16,297 nucleotides of DNA from Candidatus Zixiibacteriota bacterium (GTDB taxonomy: Bacteria; RBG-13-66-14; B26-G2; WVWN01), in NCBI GenBank assembly GCA_030613505.1, contig JAUWLW010000058.1, positions 1-16,297 of the forward strand. The letters are read 5' to 3'. The notes under the pieces are model-generated. The model was not told where the DNA came from. It saw nothing but the letters and a program-made list of their open reading frames with translations, and did no database searches. A program made the position numbers and the translations under genes. Shown here in pieces: positions 1-16,207 of the stretch; position 1 is the stretch's first letter; every line of letters begins with the position of its first letter.

Positions 1-124
1 GCCCCACGTCGCCGGCGTCACGCCGTACTACTGGGAGAGGATGGCCAAGCTCTTCGTCGACAACTTCCAGAAATTCCTGGCCGGCGAAGAGCTACCCGCC
101 AAAGTCGACAAGGAGCGGGGGTAA
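1..124 (+). CDS. D-2-hydroxyacid dehydrogenase family protein, C-terminal end (partial)
   Basis: The reading frame is open from base 2 to the TAA at 122-124 and gives the last 40 residues of a protein that starts outside the window. The segment begins PHVAGVTPYYWERM and ends LAGEELPAKVDKERG. This matches the C-terminus of NAD-dependent D-isomer-specific 2-hydroxyacid dehydrogenases (phosphoglycerate, glyoxylate/hydroxypyruvate and lactate dehydrogenase relatives). In that family the His of the PHxAG motif is the catalytic acid/base, and the tail (FxxNxxxFLxGExLPxxVDxxRG) packs against the catalytic domain. These enzymes are cytosolic. The substrate cannot be named from this tail. The stop codon overlaps the ATG at 124 (TAATG), so the next gene is probably translationally coupled in the same operon. 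Confidence 0.85.
   Translation, partial: PHVAGVTPYYWERMAKLFVDNFQKFLAGEELPAKVDKERG
110..115 (+). promoter_or_regulatory. Shine-Dalgarno site for the ATG at 124
   Basis: AAGGAG lies 8 bases before the ATG at 124, inside the end of the dehydrogenase gene. It supports 124 as the true start of the following gene even though that frame soon becomes nonsense. This is the main evidence that the next gene is frameshifted and does not start at the internal GTG at 387. Confidence 0.6.
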
Positions 125-300
125 TGCCGACGGAGCGCCAAGGGGGGTCACTATTGTTCAAACCGGCCATCGGGTTGGCGTTAGTCTCGACGGCCCACGC
201 CGCGGCCCCGGCGCCCGGGCCCCCCCCCGCACGGGCCACCCCCGCGGCGGGCGGCGCCCCCACGCCCCCAACCGCCGCGGCGGCCCGGTCGGCGCGGCGC
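124..300 (+). pseudogene. N-terminal (signal-peptide) part of a frameshifted exported hypothetical protein
   Basis: The ATG overlaps the upstream stop and has a good ribosome-binding site. The first residues (MPTERQGGSLLFKPAIGLAL, then VSTAHAAAPAP) look like a signal peptide with an Ala-X-Ala type cleavage region, followed by an Ala/Pro-rich linker. After about base 290 this frame turns into a run of Arg and other residues that do not look like protein. A convincing sequence appears in another frame (see 387-635). The two parts are best read as one gene broken somewhere between about 225 and 320. Restoring the frame needs one added base (or two removed). The run of nine C at 220-228 and the GC-only stretch 280-315 are candidate sites. 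It may be a sequencing or assembly error or a real mutation. I do not recognise a family. Confidence 0.45.
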
Positions 301-386
301 CGGCGGCGGGACCGGCCCGCGGCGAGGCCCGCGAGGGCTACTGGGGCGACTTCGAAAATGAGGGGGGGGTTGACGCGACCTACGAA

Positions 387-635
387 GTGCCCGACGAGGA
401 GGGCGAGGGAGGCCACGACGTCGCGTTCGAGTTCAAGGTCGGCGAACAGTACGTAATATTCGGCCGGCGCGACTTCGGCGGCCTGTACCGGCCCTTCCTC
501 TTCTGGAACACGCGCTGGGGCGTCGCGAACGTGGCGGAGGGCGAGCTCGACCTCGCGCGCTTCGCCGAGGGGCCGCGGCGCATCCCCCTCGCCGAGTTCC
601 GCGAAACGGTGCGCGAGATCAAGTGGGGGATGTGA
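387..635 (+). CDS. C-terminal part of the same exported hypothetical protein (frameshifted gene)
   Basis: A convincing protein sequence in a different frame from the ATG at 124. The GTG at 387 is only the first start-like codon. The same frame is open upstream and already looks protein-like from about 324 (EAREGYWGDFENEGGVDATY), so the true product is longer and probably begins at 124. The visible part has a low-complexity acidic stretch (PDEEGEGG), then a beta-rich segment (FEFKVGEQYVIFGRRDFGG), and ends FRETVREIKWGM. I do not recognise the family. Its last 44-52 bases occur twice more downstream (1103-1154 and 1362-1405). The TGA is directly followed by the GTG of the DUF4258 gene, and the G run before the stop may act as that gene's ribosome-binding site. 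Confidence 0.6.
   Translation: MPDEEGEGGHDVAFEFKVGEQYVIFGRRDFGGLYRPFLFWNTRWGVANVAEGELDLARFAEGPRRIPLAEFRETVREIKWGM
584..635 (+). repeat. Direct repeat copy 1: 3' end of the exported hypothetical gene
   Basis: The last 52 bases of the gene ending at 635, coding ...EFRETVREIKWGM-stop. It matches 1103-1154 at 49 of 52 positions by eye, with differences at 590, 591 and 620. A shorter stretch (592-635) matches 1362-1405. This copy is the only one attached to a recognisable gene body. Confidence 0.85.
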
Positions 636-869
636 GTGAAAGCCGAAAAGGGTAATGACGTCGTTTTATCCTCGCACGTAATCAGGAGAATGGCGTATCG
701 GAGCATTACGGAAGAACAAGTCATCGACGTATTAACTCGGCCCGAACATACCGAAAAAGCCGATTTCGGCTATACGGCCTATTATAAAAAAGTAGGAAGA
801 AGGCGTTTGAAGGTAATAGCAAAAAAACGAGGTAAAAGATATTACGTCTTAACGGCGTTCCCGGAGTAA
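636..869 (+). CDS. DUF4258 family protein (RelE-like toxin candidate)
   Basis: 77 residues from a GTG directly after the previous TGA; GGGGGA just upstream can serve as ribosome-binding site. The pattern fits DUF4258: SSHVIRRMAYRSITEEQV (the usual H...R...R.I..E.V motif), then a Pro near the end of the helix (LTRPEHT), an aromatic strand (GYTAYYKKVGRRRLKVIAKK) and YYVLTAFPE at the end. DUF4258 proteins resemble the RelE/ParE fold and are often found as the toxin-like half of small two-gene modules. The protein is very basic, as expected for an RNA- or ribosome-binding member. The gene is 4 bases from the DUF2283 gene, so the two form one unit. Toxicity is inferred from family context. Confidence 0.8.
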   Translation: MKAEKGNDVVLSSHVIRRMAYRSITEEQVIDVLTRPEHTEKADFGYTAYYKKVGRRRLKVIAKKRGKRYYVLTAFPE

Positions 870-873
870 CGTT

Positions 874-1086
874 ATGAAAATAACTTACGACAAAGAGGCC
901 GATGCGATGTACATCCAGATCCGCGAGGCCGAACACGGTTCGACGCAAGAAGTAGCGCCGGGGTTAATTTTGGATTTAGATGCGGCGGGCGAAGTTACCG
1001 GCATCGAGCTGTTATACGTGAGCGAGCGGATCCCGATAAAAGAATTATTGGATATTAATATCCAACTCGCCGTCGGCAAGAAATAA
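874..1086 (+). CDS. DUF2283 family protein (antitoxin-like partner of DUF4258)
   Basis: 70 residues starting MKITYDKEADAMYIQIREAE, the diagnostic opening of DUF2283, with the later hallmark GEVTGIELLYVSERI. GGAG in the end of the upstream gene lies about 9 bases before the ATG. DUF2283 is a small beta-rich family of unknown biochemical role and is repeatedly found beside DUF4258 or other RelE-like genes, so an antitoxin or accessory role is the usual guess. Length is normal for the family and the gene looks intact. Spacing to the DUF4258 gene is 4 bases. The next repeat of the upstream gene end starts 16 bases after its stop codon. Confidence 0.85.
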   Translation: MKITYDKEADAMYIQIREAEHGSTQEVAPGLILDLDAAGEVTGIELLYVSERIPIKELLDINIQLAVGKK

Positions 1087-1102
1087 AAGTGGTTTAAGCA
1101 CG

Positions 1103-1154
1103 CCCCCTGCCCGAGTTCCGCGAAACGGTGCGCGAGATAAAGTGGGGGATGTGA
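1103..1154 (+). repeat. Direct repeat copy 2: orphan 3' gene end
   Basis: Near-identical to 584-635 (49 of 52 by eye) but with no gene body in front of it, only 16 bases after the DUF2283 stop. It still reads EFRETVREIKWGM-stop. A HicB-like gene with its own ribosome-binding site begins 10 bases later. The pattern looks like a boundary duplication left by an insertion or recombination. Confidence 0.85.
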
Positions 1155-1164
1155 AAGGAGTTAT

Positions 1165-1344
1165 ATGAAATTCAAAGTCCACATCGAACCGGACGAGGAC
1201 GGCGTCTTCGTCGCGACGGTCCCGGCTCTGCCCGGTTGTATCTCCCAGGGGAAGACGGAAGAGGAAGCCGTCGCGAATATTCAGGAAGCGATAGCTCTTC
1301 ACCTCGAGTGTATGGCCGAGGACGGCGCGCGGGTCGCGCCGTAA
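1165..1344 (+). CDS. HicB-like antitoxin-family protein 1
   Basis: 59 residues starting MKFKVHIEPDEDGVFVATVP, then ALPGCISQGKTEEEAVANIQ and EAIALHLECMAEDGARVAP. This is the classic HicB N-terminal fold: two beta strands with D/E-DG-.-.VA, PxLPGC..QG.T.EEA..N..EAI. The ATG is preceded by AAGGAG (1155-1160). There is no C-terminal HTH or RHH DNA-binding extension, so it is the short HicB form. No hicA (double-stranded-RNA-binding-like toxin with a GSH-H motif) is visible next to it on either strand, so it is an orphan. HicB proteins normally neutralise HicA mRNA interferases. What this one binds is unknown. The 3' end of another gene lies immediately before it. Confidence 0.85.
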   Translation: MKFKVHIEPDEDGVFVATVPALPGCISQGKTEEEAVANIQEAIALHLECMAEDGARVAP

Positions 1345-1361
1345 TACTAAAGCCGTCCCGG

Positions 1362-1405
1362 CCGCGTTCCGCGAGAAGGTGCGGGAGATAAAGTGGGGGA
1401 TGTGA
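1362..1405 (+). repeat. Direct repeat copy 3: orphan 3' gene end, diverged
   Basis: Matches copy 2 at 40 of 44 bases by eye and reads AFREKVREIKWGM-stop. The differences include one synonymous Arg codon change and conservative substitutions (Thr to Lys), as if this end came from a paralogous gene and not from simple decay. It sits between the two HicB-like genes. Confidence 0.75.
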
Positions 1406-1430
1406 GGTTAACCCTAAAGGAGCCGACGCT

Positions 1431-1610
1431 ATGAAACTTTTAATAACCTTATATCAAGACGAAGACGGCGTTTATATCGCGGAGTGCCCGGCCATCCCCG
1501 GCTGCGTGAGCCAGGGGGCGACGGAGGAAGAGGCCGAGGCAAATATTAAACAAGCGATCGAAGAATGCCTCGAGGTCCGCGCCGAAAAGGGTATGCCGCT
1601 CGCGGCCTAG
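1431..1610 (+). CDS. HicB-like antitoxin-family protein 2
   Basis: 59 residues starting MKLLITLYQDEDGVYIAECP, then AIPGCVSQGATEEEAEANIK and QAIEECLEVRAEKGMPLAA. It has the same HicB signature as the gene at 1165 and exactly the same length, but differs throughout, so it is a diverged paralogue and not a recent duplication. AAAGGAG at 1416-1422 lies 8 bases before the ATG. No hicA partner is visible and there is no DNA-binding tail. It is followed, 28 bases later, by the nuclease-like gene, which has its own strong ribosome-binding site. The partner could be encoded elsewhere or be non-canonical. Confidence 0.85.
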   Translation: MKLLITLYQDEDGVYIAECPAIPGCVSQGATEEEAEANIKQAIEECLEVRAEKGMPLAA

Positions 1611-1638: not shown

Positions 1639-2154
1639 ATGGCGGTAAGTTATCTTGAGTCGCTGGCGTGGGAGTATTGCGAGTTCGTAAAAGGTTATTA
1701 CGTAAAAAGGAACGTATCCATCAAGAAATACACACACAAGCCGGGGCCCGATTTGGAATTAGATATAATAGCATACGACGAAGAGAGGGGAATACACATA
1801 ATATACGAATTATCCGAAGGTTGGAACGTATCTTGGTCGGAGTTCGTAAACGAGATGGGAAAAAAATGTGCCAAGATTTTAGAATTAGATATCGGCGCTT
1901 CAGAGGTATTTTTTGTTTCGGGTTATGCTAAGAGACCTAGGTTTAATATTAACGAAGAAATATCCTCACTCAACCGTAAGTTCCGTGACCGGGGATTGTC
2001 GATTTCTTATTTAAACGTTCCGACTTTCCTAGGTTCCGTTATTACCGGGGTTAGAGATAAACTACGTACCGTTAAATCGATCCCGACAATATATCCTTCG
2101 CTTAGGTTAATAGAGCTCCTTATCGAAAACAATTTCCTAGTTGAAGAAAGCTAG
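1639..2154 (+). CDS. Restriction-endonuclease-like (PD-(D/E)XK-type candidate) hypothetical protein
   Basis: 171 residues with AAAGGAGG 4 bases before the ATG. The N-terminal half, LESLAWEYCEFVKGYYVKRN followed by ELDIIAYDEERG and HIIYELSEGWN, resembles a widespread family of small uncharacterised proteins with the layout of PD-(D/E)XK nucleases: an early helix, then Asp42 in E-L-D, then Glu57 in Y-E-L-S. The usual Lys after the second acidic residue is replaced by Ser59, so catalysis is uncertain. The C-terminal half has alternating strands and helices (VFFVSGYAKRPRF; RLIELLIENNFLVEE) and no recognised domain. The gene is clearly more A+T-rich than alaS, which fits acquisition. It opens a run of three larger accessory genes. 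A role in defence or DNA processing is inference. Confidence 0.6.
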   Translation: MAVSYLESLAWEYCEFVKGYYVKRNVSIKKYTHKPGPDLELDIIAYDEERGIHIIYELSEGWNVSWSEFVNEMGKKCAKILELDIGASEVFFVSGYAKRPRFNINEEISSLNRKFRDRGLSISYLNVPTFLGSVITGVRDKLRTVKSIPTIYPSLRLIELLIENNFLVEES

Positions 2155-2171
2155 TAGGTTTTCTAATCCAT

Positions 2172-2185
2172 ATCCGTACACGGAT
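2172..2185 (+). promoter_or_regulatory. Palindrome in the 174-base gap before the YaaC-like gene
   Basis: ATCCGTACACGGAT is a perfect inverted repeat (6-base arms, 2-base centre). It could be an operator. It is followed by CGATTTTT, so a weak terminator for the gene at 1639 is the other reading, with a short 5-base stem and 4-base loop. The rest of 2155-2328 shows no convincing gene. Confidence 0.3.
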
Positions 2186-2328
2186 CGATTTTTCGGTATA
2201 CTCGCCCCGACCTATCATAAAATACGCCGGACACCAACACGGACACCTCGGCGGATTCTCCTAAGAAATCTCCGGAATTGGTTAAGCGAAGTCTTTAAAA
2301 AGGGAAGGAAACAAAATTAAACTTAAAA

Positions 2329-3288
2329 ATGCGCGATAAAATGGAAATAAGGTTCGACGAAAACCCCTTCCCGGAAAACGTCAGGGAATTAACCGAATAT
2401 CTTAGTAACCCTACCAATTTCGAGTACGCAATTAATAGGGCACTGAATAACGATTTCTACGGGTTAAAAGTTGACTCGATAATTGAACAAAAGAAAAAAT
2501 ATGCTTCCGAAAATTTAGAAACCCGGGTCGACATCCCGGCTAATATAACGCGAAACGACGTTGAAGAAGCAGCGCAAAAAGCGGTAACATCTTTTCGGCA
2601 GGCTAATGAATACTTTTTTGCGGCTGAAAACGTCTCCCTATTAACAAAACCTACGCTTATTTTCTACGGTATGGTTAACTACGCTAAATCCTTGATATTT
2701 TGTACTTATAAATACGAATCAGAAGTGGAGGGCCACGGTTTAACGTTCGCGAAAAAAGATAATTCCGTCACGATAGAAAAAGCAGGGGAATTTCCCCGTC
2801 TACATGATTGTTTAAGGTCGGAACTCTCGATTTATTTAACCCCAGCAAACGAGCCAAAAAATAATTTTACTTTAACGGAACTGCTAAGTTTAATGCCCCA
2901 CATCTCTGATAAAATAGGGTTGGGTGTAAAAGGGCTACCCGATTACGACCCTGGTAAACAAATAGGGGCCAAACCGGTATTCGAACTAGAAAAAATGGGA
3001 AGGCATTTTTCTCTCCATTACCCTCAAGGTAAAAAAGGTCGTATAGGTAATATTCCGTTGTTGGAAGTCCAGTATCTACTGGGTTTCGGATTATGTTCGC
3101 AAGCCCGATATCATGCCCCTGAATGGGTAAAGACTGTAGAATCCCCCCAATCTTACGCATATTCCGTATTATTAAATTATGCCTTAGTTAATTTCCCACT
3201 TTTAATAATGAGCGAATTATTAGGAACATACCTATATTACCTCCCAAAACCATATTTAGCCGGTAGTGCCGATGTAACTTTTGGTTAA
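2329..3288 (+). CDS. YaaC-like protein
   Basis: 319 residues, A+T-rich. The central signature (SFRQANEYFFAAENVSLLTK, then PTLIFYGMVNYAKSLI, then EGHGLTF) and the C-terminal SYAYSVLLNYALVNFPLLIM segment match my memory of the YaaC-like family, named after Bacillus subtilis YaaC and about the same length. Its biochemical function is unknown. Residues 225-230 read R-H-F-S-L-H, the spacing of a HEPN RNase motif (R-x4-H). Whether this is a real active site cannot be decided by eye. The start is uncertain: ATGs occur at 2329 and 2341, and the nearest purine-rich element (AAGG near 2304) is too far from either for a normal ribosome-binding site. The gene is isolated by a 174-base gap upstream. Downstream it is followed by a decayed alaS fragment. 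Confidence 0.6.
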   Translation: MRDKMEIRFDENPFPENVRELTEYLSNPTNFEYAINRALNNDFYGLKVDSIIEQKKKYASENLETRVDIPANITRNDVEEAAQKAVTSFRQANEYFFAAENVSLLTKPTLIFYGMVNYAKSLIFCTYKYESEVEGHGLTFAKKDNSVTIEKAGEFPRLHDCLRSELSIYLTPANEPKNNFTLTELLSLMPHISDKIGLGVKGLPDYDPGKQIGAKPVFELEKMGRHFSLHYPQGKKGRIGNIPLLEVQYLLGFGLCSQARYHAPEWVKTVESPQSYAYSVLLNYALVNFPLLIMSELLGTYLYYLPKPYLAGSADVTFG

Positions 3289-3324
3289 TTTAAACTTATA
3301 AACTAAACGATGTAAAATTCGTAT

Positions 3325-3405
3325 ATGGACTCCAAAACGCTACGCCAATCGTTCCTCTAGTTCTTCGCCGAGCGGGGACAAAAGAGCATCGGCCGGGCGC
3401 TCAGT
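3325..3405 (+). pseudogene. alaS: Decayed 5' fragment of an alaS gene
   Basis: Read from the ATG at 3325, the frame gives MDSKTLRQSFL, a TAG stop at 3358-3360, then FFAERGQKSIGRALS. It aligns without gaps to the start of the intact alaS at 4521 (MNSSDLRQSFLDFFVERGHK). The stop replaces the Asp codon. Many differences are in third codon positions (for example CTA/CTC, CGC/CGT, TCG/TCC), so the fragment is old or came from a related genome. Homology fades after about 27 codons, where the DUF2726-like gene begins in another frame. The 36 bases before the ATG (3289-3324) are A+T-rich, with no promoter I would defend. Confidence 0.7.
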
Positions 3406-4516
3406 GCAGAAAATACCATTTAACGTGACCCAAACGGAGAAGGCCCTAGGCCCGACGATAAGTCGAGCTATTAACGGTTCAGGTTATACCGTTAATCGGA
3501 GAACTAAAGTTAAATCCGTAATAGGGAAGCAGGAAAACGATCATTTGGATAGAAACGAGAAAAAAGCGTTCGAGGATGCAGAATTCGATTACGTTGTATT
3601 GGATGAAAAAACATACCCCGTCTTCGCGGTAGAATACGACGGGCCGTGCCACGAAAAACCCGAGAAAAAACGGGGCGACGCCCGTAAAAACGCGTGGTGC
3701 GCCGACGCCGGATTACCATTATTAAGAGTAAGTGATTGGGAGGTTACTAAAGAAGACCGGGATTTATTTATTACCTATTTAATAAAAAGGCATTTTGCTT
3801 ATCGGGAAGAACTCCCGCGTATTATTAGGAAGATCGAAGAACAATACGGCCAAGAAGAAATAGACCGGCGTTATGCCGAGGGTTTTATTAAGTGGGACAT
3901 GGACCCCAACCGCGTATTCGATTTAAGCTACCCGTTTCCGAGTTTTGATCACGTCCTTGAAAAAATAGCTAGCGATTTTAAAATATTCGTCCTTTTCCAA
4001 CCTCCAACGAAGGCTCTATTGGTTGAAAAACGGACCGCTAACGGACTTAGGTTAATACCCGTAGAGTTGGCGACGGAGACGGAAAAAAAAGAATACGGGA
4101 AACCCGGTTTAGCACGTTGTATTATAAACGGCGGGCGGTTATACGGCGAACCGGAAGGAACGAAAACGGTTTTTTCTTGTTGGTGGTATATTATTAGGCT
4201 TTCGGGTGCCGAACCCGGCGGATATAGTTTTTCCAACGTCGGCGGCCCTATCTCCGTTAGGGGCGGGTACGAGGTTATTAACCAGAATAGCGTTTCGTTA
4301 AAGCTCGATACTATCTTACGATTTGACCTTAATCGTGAACCTACTGCTATCAACATCGGGGAATGTTCGCGAAGAGGTCTCAATAACGCGCGTGTTTACG
4401 CCGGCTTACCCGGTTCGGAGTTTTTTTTCGTGAGCAATAGTTTCACGTGCTATTTAGCATCAAAAGCCGCGTACGAGTGTTTGTCCGAGAACGGATCTAT
4501 CTGGAAAGGTGAGTAG
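3404..4516 (+). CDS. DUF2726-like domain protein (nuclease-fold candidate) with unknown C-terminal domain
   Basis: 370 residues. The N-terminal ~140 residues fit DUF2726, a restriction-endonuclease-like domain. They have an opening helix (TQTEKALGPTISRAI), then Asp62 in FDYVVLDE, then Glu77-x-Asp79 in VFAVEYDG with His83, and then RGDARKNAWCADAGLPLLRV, the family's conserved RD..K...AGLPLLR helix-strand. The remaining ~220 residues (for example FKIFVLFQPPTKALL, TVFSCWWYIIRLSG) are unrecognised. The GTG start lacks a clear ribosome-binding site, but the DUF2726 homology begins near residue 10, so the N-terminus is probably complete. The gene is A+T-rich. It lies exactly between the alaS fragment and intact alaS, and its stop overlaps the alaS ribosome-binding site. 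A defence or DNA-modification role is inference. Confidence 0.65.
   Translation: MQKIPFNVTQTEKALGPTISRAINGSGYTVNRRTKVKSVIGKQENDHLDRNEKKAFEDAEFDYVVLDEKTYPVFAVEYDGPCHEKPEKKRGDARKNAWCADAGLPLLRVSDWEVTKEDRDLFITYLIKRHFAYREELPRIIRKIEEQYGQEEIDRRYAEGFIKWDMDPNRVFDLSYPFPSFDHVLEKIASDFKIFVLFQPPTKALLVEKRTANGLRLIPVELATETEKKEYGKPGLARCIINGGRLYGEPEGTKTVFSCWWYIIRLSGAEPGGYSFSNVGGPISVRGGYEVINQNSVSLKLDTILRFDLNREPTAINIGECSRRGLNNARVYAGLPGSEFFFVSNSFTCYLASKAAYECLSENGSIWKGE
4507..4512 (+). promoter_or_regulatory. Shine-Dalgarno site that decides the alaS start
   Basis: AGGTGA matches the anti-Shine-Dalgarno core and lies 8 bases before the TTG at 4521. The competing GTG at 4509 lies inside this element and has no properly spaced site of its own. 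The element sits within the last codons of the upstream gene, so the two may be translationally coupled. Confidence 0.55.
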
Positions 4517-4520
4517 TAAA

Positions 4521-7163
<2,643 letters not shown>

Positions 7164-15250: not shown

Positions 15251-16207
15251 CTACCTAAACAACGCCTTCACGCGGCCGAGGGAGGACGGGACGACATTAC
15301 TCGGCGATTCGCGGAAGTATTGGACACGAGGGTTATCTCGGTCGGTAACGTAAACGCGGGTGCCGTCCCAAGAAAGGCCCACCCTGGTAGGATACAGGAA
15401 CTGGCCTTTCCCGGTCCCTGTAGTACCCCACTGGCCCAAATAAGACCCTGTCGCCGTGAAGTATTGGATGCGGCGATTAAAGCAGTCGCAAACGAAAACG
15501 GTCCCGTCGGGCGCTACGGCGATACCGTTCGGGGCCGCGAATTGACCCGGGCCGGACCCTACGCTACCCCACTTGCCTAAAAAGGACCCCGTGGGCGTGA
15601 AGTATTGCACGCGGTGGTTGGAAGTATCTATAACGTAGACGTTACCGTTAGGACCCACTGCGACGGCGTAAGGGGCATCGAATTGGCCCTCACCGGACCC
15701 TAGGCCGCCCCACCGCCCCAGGTATGAACCGGTAGAGGTGAAATACGCTACGCCGTGAGCTTCCCATAATTCCGTTACGTAGACAGTTCCGTTTGCGGCG
15801 ACTGCGACGCCGTTGGGACGAGTGAGTTGGGCGGCAATAACGCCCAAAAAAGAACCGTTTGGCGTGAAATACTGAAACCGGAAATTACGTACATCGGCCA
15901 CGTAGACGTTGCCGTTAGGGGCGACCGCTACGCCGCACGGCCCGTCGAATTGGCCTTCCCCCTGGCCGTAGGAGCCCCACATGCCTAAGAACTTACCTTT
16001 AGGCCCGTAATAATGGACTCGGTCGAAGTAAGTGTTTGCTAGGTATATGCGGCCGTTGGGGGCGCCCGTAACGCCGACAGGGCGCGCGAAAGCTCTTGTG
16101 TTAGCCTTAGGCGACCGCCACTGGCCCTCGTACACCCAAGCGCCGTAAGCACAAAAGGCCGCCAGCGCGCCGAGCGCCGCGGCCGTAGTTATCGCGAGCT
16201 TACTCAT
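15251..16207 (-). CDS. Exported NHL-repeat beta-propeller protein
   Basis: 318 residues on the minus strand. AGGAGG (16222-16217) lies 9 bases before the ATG. A signal peptide or anchor (KLAITTAAALGALAAFCAYG) is followed by six NHL repeats between residues ~32 and ~303, each of the form GQF..P.GVAVAPNGNVYVAD, then N.RVQYFTP.GSFLG.WG. Six repeats would close a six-bladed propeller. The closing tail is SNVVPSSLGRVKALFR. NHL propellers bind proteins, peptides or RNA. An exported one with no catalytic domain probably acts in the periplasm or on the surface as a binding module. Partner unknown. The tail SLGRVKALF(R/K) recurs at 14921-14959. The gene is G+C-rich like the core genes. Confidence 0.9.
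   Translation of the reverse strand: MSKLAITTAAALGALAAFCAYGAWVYEGQWRSPKANTRAFARPVGVTGAPNGRIYLANTYFDRVHYYGPKGKFLGMWGSYGQGEGQFDGPCGVAVAPNGNVYVADVRNFRFQYFTPNGSFLGVIAAQLTRPNGVAVAANGTVYVTELWEAHGVAYFTSTGSYLGRWGGLGSGEGQFDAPYAVAVGPNGNVYVIDTSNHRVQYFTPTGSFLGKWGSVGSGPGQFAAPNGIAVAPDGTVFVCDCFNRRIQYFTATGSYLGQWGTTGTGKGQFLYPTRVGLSWDGTRVYVTDRDNPRVQYFRESPSNVVPSSLGRVKALFR

Follow-up and report, generated by a model that had tools for sequence, protein, structure and literature searches.

Toxin-antitoxin genes between copies of a gene end: probable insertions with long target duplication in a genus of Zixiibacteriota

Insertion with long target duplication has been described for restriction-modification (R-M) genes in Helicobacter pylori (Nobusato et al. 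2000, Gene 259:99, cited in PMC1643837, PMC3031569 and PMC3874152), a work considered here through its later descriptions. Insertions of toxin-antitoxin (TA) modules are also known from the intergenic regions relA-mazG, folA-apaH and dinB-yafP of Escherichia coli, and according to a 2020 review the route by which such modules integrate is 'unelucidated' (PMC7167474). The present analysis concerns a 16,297-base stretch of DNA from a Candidatus Zixiibacteriota bacterium (hereafter the window), which is the entire contig C67 of an assembly of 2.86 Mb in 100 contigs (G000). In this window, small TA-like genes alternate with copies of the 3' end of a gene for a hypothetical exported protein (the host gene), upstream of alaS. 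Comparison with three sister species of the same genus (G001, G002 and G003) made it probable that the slot between the host gene and alaS repeatedly took up small addiction modules by insertion with long target duplication.

The likeness to the R-M insertions extends to genome G000 itself, which has an R-M case of its own, at rtcB. Judged from the later descriptions of the 2000 work, the differences are that the cargo is mostly TA, that a single end has served up to four times, giving an array, and that the target, a gene terminus of either kind (3' or 5'), is still functional. In E. coli, TA modules likewise lie within operons whose genes stay intact, but mazEF, dinJ-yafQ, yafNO and mqsRA of strain K-12 have no flanking target copies. 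Integron cassette arrays share with the locus their promoterless small genes, often TA, the repeats between them, a fixed site and possible growth at one end, whereas here no integrase exceeds the detection cut-off and the repeat is not a hairpin but the end of a protein gene, differing from locus to locus. Integrative elements with gene 3' ends as attachment sites also restore the 3' end, displace the original end and leave gene-end copies on either side of the insert; unlike them, the units described here measure 0.2-0.7 kb, carry no integrase, also use 5' ends and show variable duplication lengths. The passages found on long target duplication and toxin-antitoxin report no TA insertion of this kind, and an earlier example may stand in Nobusato et al. 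2000 or Furuta et al. 2010. An earlier note on this DNA had called such an accumulation of tiny genes unusual. Long target duplication as such is not, being already described for R-M systems, but TA modules as cargo and the repeated reuse of one gene end, leading to an integron-like array without integrase, are new within the literature searched.

The features of the array are as follows.

124..635, + strand: host gene, hypothetical exported protein; relatives without Pfam match; frame intact from 336 to the stop at 635
584..635, + strand: repeat R0, the native host-gene 3' end; 45-nt core at 591-635
636..869, + strand: DUF4258 protein, putative toxin partner of DUF2283 (PF14076, 3e-7); GTG start directly after the host stop
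874..1086, + strand: DUF2283 protein 'a', putative antitoxin (Pfam, 1e-16); orthologue at the same array position in G001
1103..1154, + strand: repeat R1, orphan copy of the host 3' end; core at 1110-1154
1165..1344, + strand: HicB1, antitoxin-like (PF15919, HicB_lk_antitox, 1.6e-14); without HicA partner
1354..1405, + strand: repeat R2, orphan copy of the host 3' end; core at 1361-1405
1431..1610, + strand: HicB2, antitoxin-like (HicB_lk_antitox, 3e-7); orthologues in G001 and G003 retain HicA, and that in G003 also a distal repeat

The repeat corresponds to the final 14 codons and the stop of the host gene, and the three copies reported in the earlier note proved to be real. Relative to the first core, the second is identical at 43/45 positions and the third at 40/45; over 52 nt, with 584-635 as reference, the repeat finder gave 94% for 1103-1154 and 83% for 1354-1405. 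The search of the whole assembly that the same note had suggested returned these three sites only (E = 7e-26, 5e-17 and 5e-11); since the next match reached merely E = 0.04, chance is excluded for the three copies. Pfam confirmed the claimed order of the genes alternating with the copies (DUF4258 with DUF2283, then HicB, then HicB), and the second and third copies are indeed without gene body. No Rfam match was found in the repeats. The third copy had been attributed to a paralogue because of its silent and conservative differences. Most of these differences are of that kind, but neither the genome nor the genus contains a full-length paralogue, and none is needed, since exchange with the coding copy could account for the coding-like look.

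The comparison of sister genomes, likewise suggested beforehand, was informative. The host gene is present in all four genus genomes and alaS follows it after a variable stretch, which holds no, two, three or four units in G002, G003, G000 and G001, respectively, in the following orders.

G002: host, single gene end, unrelated 173-residue open reading frame (ORF), alaS; no TA insert
G003: host, R0, (DUF2283b), R1, (HicB2-HicA), R2, alaS; two TA units and three gene ends
G000: host, R0, (DUF4258-DUF2283a), R1, (HicB1), R2, (HicB2), three genes of low G+C content, alaS
G001: host, R0, (DUF2283a), R1, (HicB1), R2, (DUF2283b), R3, (HicB2-HicA), alaS; four units and four gene ends

A single union order of units is consistent with all species. 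The array of G001 is reached by two contigs, C6 and C132, and no match to the HicB, DUF2283, DUF4258 or HepT families was obtained in G002, an assembly just 78% complete. HicB2 is paired with HicA in G001 (HicA, 7e-16) and in G003 (by similarity to G001), whereas both HicB genes of the window are without HicA. The unit genes diverged like alaS: identity at 4-fold sites was 0.72-0.74 against 0.75 for alaS between G000 and G001, and 0.65 for HicB2 against 0.64 for alaS between G001 and G003. The units shared between species are therefore probably older than the species splits.

The same scar was found at unrelated genes, in a search that combined a scan of 400 kb of G000 with targeted reading of TA loci. 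The clearest series concerns sat (ATP sulfurylase). In G002 there is one sat end and no MNT-HepT unit, a channel gene following sat directly; G003 has one MNT-HepT and two sat ends, and in G000 and G001 two units accompany three ends, the second MNT of G001 closely matching the first (DNA identity 0.976). The duplication spans about 52-62 nt. Distal sat ends are alike across species whereas the last codons of the proximal end differ from them, so that the new sat stop seems to have been supplied from the insert side. At gcvH, MNT-HepT lies between two copies of the gene's first 58 nt (57/58 identical), of which the orphan one runs on into the start of MNT through an ATGA overlap. At rtcB, two copies of a 91-nt stretch of the 5' end (89/91) enclose a type II R-M pair consisting of a DNA methyltransferase (N6_N4_Mtase, 1e-52) and a BglII-type endonuclease (4e-21); the G+C content of the insert is 0.43 against 0.62. 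At the yebC/comEC junction, 123 nt are duplicated around a 1-kb insert with a G+C content of 0.38 and two small ORFs; yebC-comEC is uninterrupted in G001 and G003, as is the single sat target in G002. Finally, the 5' end of alaS in the window is also duplicated, around a DUF2726 gene.

A second yebC copy is present on contig C99 of the same assembly (L183, G000:C99:318-602), with 94% protein identity and different DNA after it; it may stem from mixed strains or from another insertion at this gene end.

In these cases, bare operons without transposase (HicB/HicA, DUF4258/DUF2283, MNT-HepT, methyltransferase with BglII-type endonuclease) are flanked on both sides by a copy of a gene terminus and adjoin one uninterrupted copy of the gene, the host gene of G000 having a separate upstream frameshift. 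Duplication length varied from 45 to 123 nt between events. The cassette process proposed in the earlier note, in which each small gene brings or makes a copy of the gene end, is thus supported both by genomes with zero, two, three and four units and by the recurrence of the scar at unrelated genes. Each event would set a nearly bare operon between two copies, of about 45-52 nt, of the host 3' end; the upstream copy would complete the host gene and the downstream copy would be left as an orphan, so that n inserts would yield n+1 gene ends, a relation seen at sat in G000, G001 and G003 and in the array of G003. The next insertion would reuse the same gene end, the array growing in this manner, and TA pairs would later often be reduced to the antitoxin alone. 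At the array, at sat and at gcvH, the gap between target copy and first start codon is only about 0-27 nt wide, a spacing which suggests that the modules depend on transcription or translation of the host gene.

Products of this form would be expected if a small circle with a fragment of a gene end integrated by a single crossover (Campbell-type), a route that would yield both 3' and 5' forms; a template switch or a long staggered cut could also leave them. Because insertions elsewhere destroy the gene, the surviving ones would be enriched at gene ends. Strict 3'-end specificity was ruled out by the 5' ends used at gcvH, rtcB and alaS and by the gene-end counts. A candidate recognition motif at the target edge, GCCGAGTTCC, recurs by a DUF2283 gene on contig C95 and resembles the sat edge; it is absent at the gcvH, rtcB and yebC edges and was therefore taken as chance.

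Once in place, the repeats may allow loss, gain and duplication of units by homologous recombination, and there are suggestive signs that they exchange sequence. Repeats within G000 and within G001 remain 40-44/45 alike (R0-R1 44/45 and R0-R3 43/45 in G001, R0-R1 43/45 in G000), against only 39/45 for the orthologous R1 of the two genomes. Species-specific states are common to several copies, namely GAA in R0 and R1 of G000 and CTG in R0-R2 of G001. Binomial values per pair range from 0.01 to 0.40, the pairs not being independent. Dating the order of insertions from repeat sequence was dropped because of this apparent exchange.

It could also be envisaged that the gene end was duplicated only once, in an ancestor, with units spreading by tandem duplication and unequal crossing-over and with the small genes as diverged copies of one pair. 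HicB1 and HicB2 are paralogues, as are DUF2283a and b, and the near-identical MNT pair at sat of G001 suggests that such a process may well contribute there. As a general account it is unlikely: protein identity is only 54% for HicB1-HicB2 and for DUF2283a-b, whereas adjacent repeats share 40-44 of 45 positions, which would require strong homogenisation of the repeats and not of the genes, and the duplications at gcvH, rtcB, yebC and alaS are left unexplained.

It is quite improbable that an integron- or phage-type recombinase acting in trans inserted circular cassettes of repeat and TA genes, with the gene end as attachment site. The best score for the integron integrase model TIGR02249 in the four genus genomes was 74.8 bits against a cut-off of 265 (sub-threshold matches also occurred in the 14 control genomes), folding of the repeat was no better than that of shuffled sequences (z from -0.51 to +0.81), and the TA and R-M inserts yielded no recombinase; tyrosine recombinases of the ordinary kind do occur, none of them examined individually. 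Site-specific integration would be consistent with the position of the repeat junctions, since all four distinct left junctions lie no more than about 7 nt from a single position and the right ends are almost all at the stop codon, with the promoterless, cassette-like units, and with a pattern of presence and absence suggesting growth at the host-proximal end. The target copies at the host gene, sat, gcvH and rtcB are however unrelated in sequence and length, and variable length together with unrelated targets argues against one site-specific recombinase.

Activity of repetitive extragenic palindromes (REPs) and their associated tyrosine transposase (RAYT, IS200-like Y1) has been considered as well, the TA genes coming along with gene-end duplications made in this way. 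In G000, REP elements lie between copies of several gene ends, and in one case a RAYT gene does; this explanation is nevertheless very improbable here, as neither was seen on reading the sequence of the window array or of the sat, gcvH and rtcB sites. The region concerned (L072 3438-5930) contains two consecutive genes, a channel gene and a 134-residue gene; each has its end repeated several times, with REP elements and the RAYT transposase in between. In E. coli K-12, rayT lies between 84-nt direct repeats (L195 12459-13284), which were read as its own REPs.

An array of paralogues whose bodies were replaced by small genes, the other model of the earlier note, is hardly credible in spite of the mostly coding-like pattern of the orphan copies: it is refuted within the available genomes, as each of the four has one full host copy and no second full-length gene, and G002 shows one end, an unrelated ORF and alaS.

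The frequency of flanking repeats was estimated by comparing 200-nt flanks, with a repeat score of 20 or more taken as positive: 18 of the 29 listed TA modules were positive, against 9 of 548 background genes. Gene-end copies proper were found at three TA sites (host slot, sat and gcvH). Repeats of FlpD-like genes, C-terminal sorting tags and tandem paralogues were set aside as false positives. An intergenic repeat of about 78 nt, with a terminator-like hairpin, occurs in three copies around a HicB-HicA pair and a 346-residue gene in G001 (L083 1024-2928).

Several observations weigh against insertion with long target duplication as the explanation. Eleven of the 29 TA modules lack a strong flanking repeat, some positives are due to REPs or intergenic repeats and not to gene ends, and the 29 modules are not independent, orthologues and array units being counted separately. 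The scar is rare genome-wide (some 1% of the genes over 400 kb), and 3' ends are copied no more often than 5' ends, 304 genes of G000 giving four matches of each kind, paralogues included. The scars at gcvH, rtcB and yebC each occur in one assembly only, those of the array and of sat in three, and the genomes are public assemblies, at least one of them metagenome-assembled. The arrays of G000 and G001 lack a distal repeat, the repeats of G003 have diverged (34-38/45), and the slot of G002 holds an unrelated ORF, which makes sat the cleaner TA-free reference. No enzyme was identified for the insertions.

It is conceivable, though doubtful, that the genus has an active and general pathway bringing addiction modules (TA and R-M) to ordinary gene ends, making or carrying a gene-end copy of 45-120 nt, and that reuse of an end leads to integron-like arrays without integrase. 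In that case, TA modules would themselves count as mobile elements and could be recognised by their scar. A scar common to TA and R-M modules, with relatives carrying zero, one, two or more units, makes TA entry testable by comparative genomics and offers a way to study how selfish modules enter genomes, while the reuse of one gene end shows a possible origin of an integron-like array without integrase.

The remainder of the slot contains the following features.

1639..2154, + strand: 171-residue ORF without Pfam match, in a low-G+C insert region
2329..3288, + strand: YaaC-like gene (PF14175, 1e-23), in a low-G+C insert region
about 3325..3407, + strand: orphan copy of the alaS 5' end (MDSKTLRQSFL*FFAERG); best alignment 3340-3383 with 4536-4579 of functional alaS
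3404..4516, + strand: DUF2726 gene between the orphan and functional alaS starts, running into the alaS start at 4509
4509..7163, + strand: alaS, conserved right border of the slot; GTG start, first nine codons unlike those of relatives

The block between HicB2 and alaS (1639-4516, with the 171-residue ORF, the YaaC-like gene and the DUF2726 gene) looks foreign, its G+C content being 0.43 against 0.68 for alaS. The host gene, which the cassette model of the earlier note takes to be kept intact, is so in G002 and G003; the G000 copy is frameshifted upstream in this assembly, in a G+C-rich, low-complexity segment at about 150-340, and the damage at window positions 124-386 may be sequencing error or decay. 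A C-terminal tag resembling PASLGRVKALFR followed by a stop is common to exported proteins (window 15251-16207 and many genes in L094, L142, L151, L164 and L169); it is probably a sorting signal and also produces false repeat matches.
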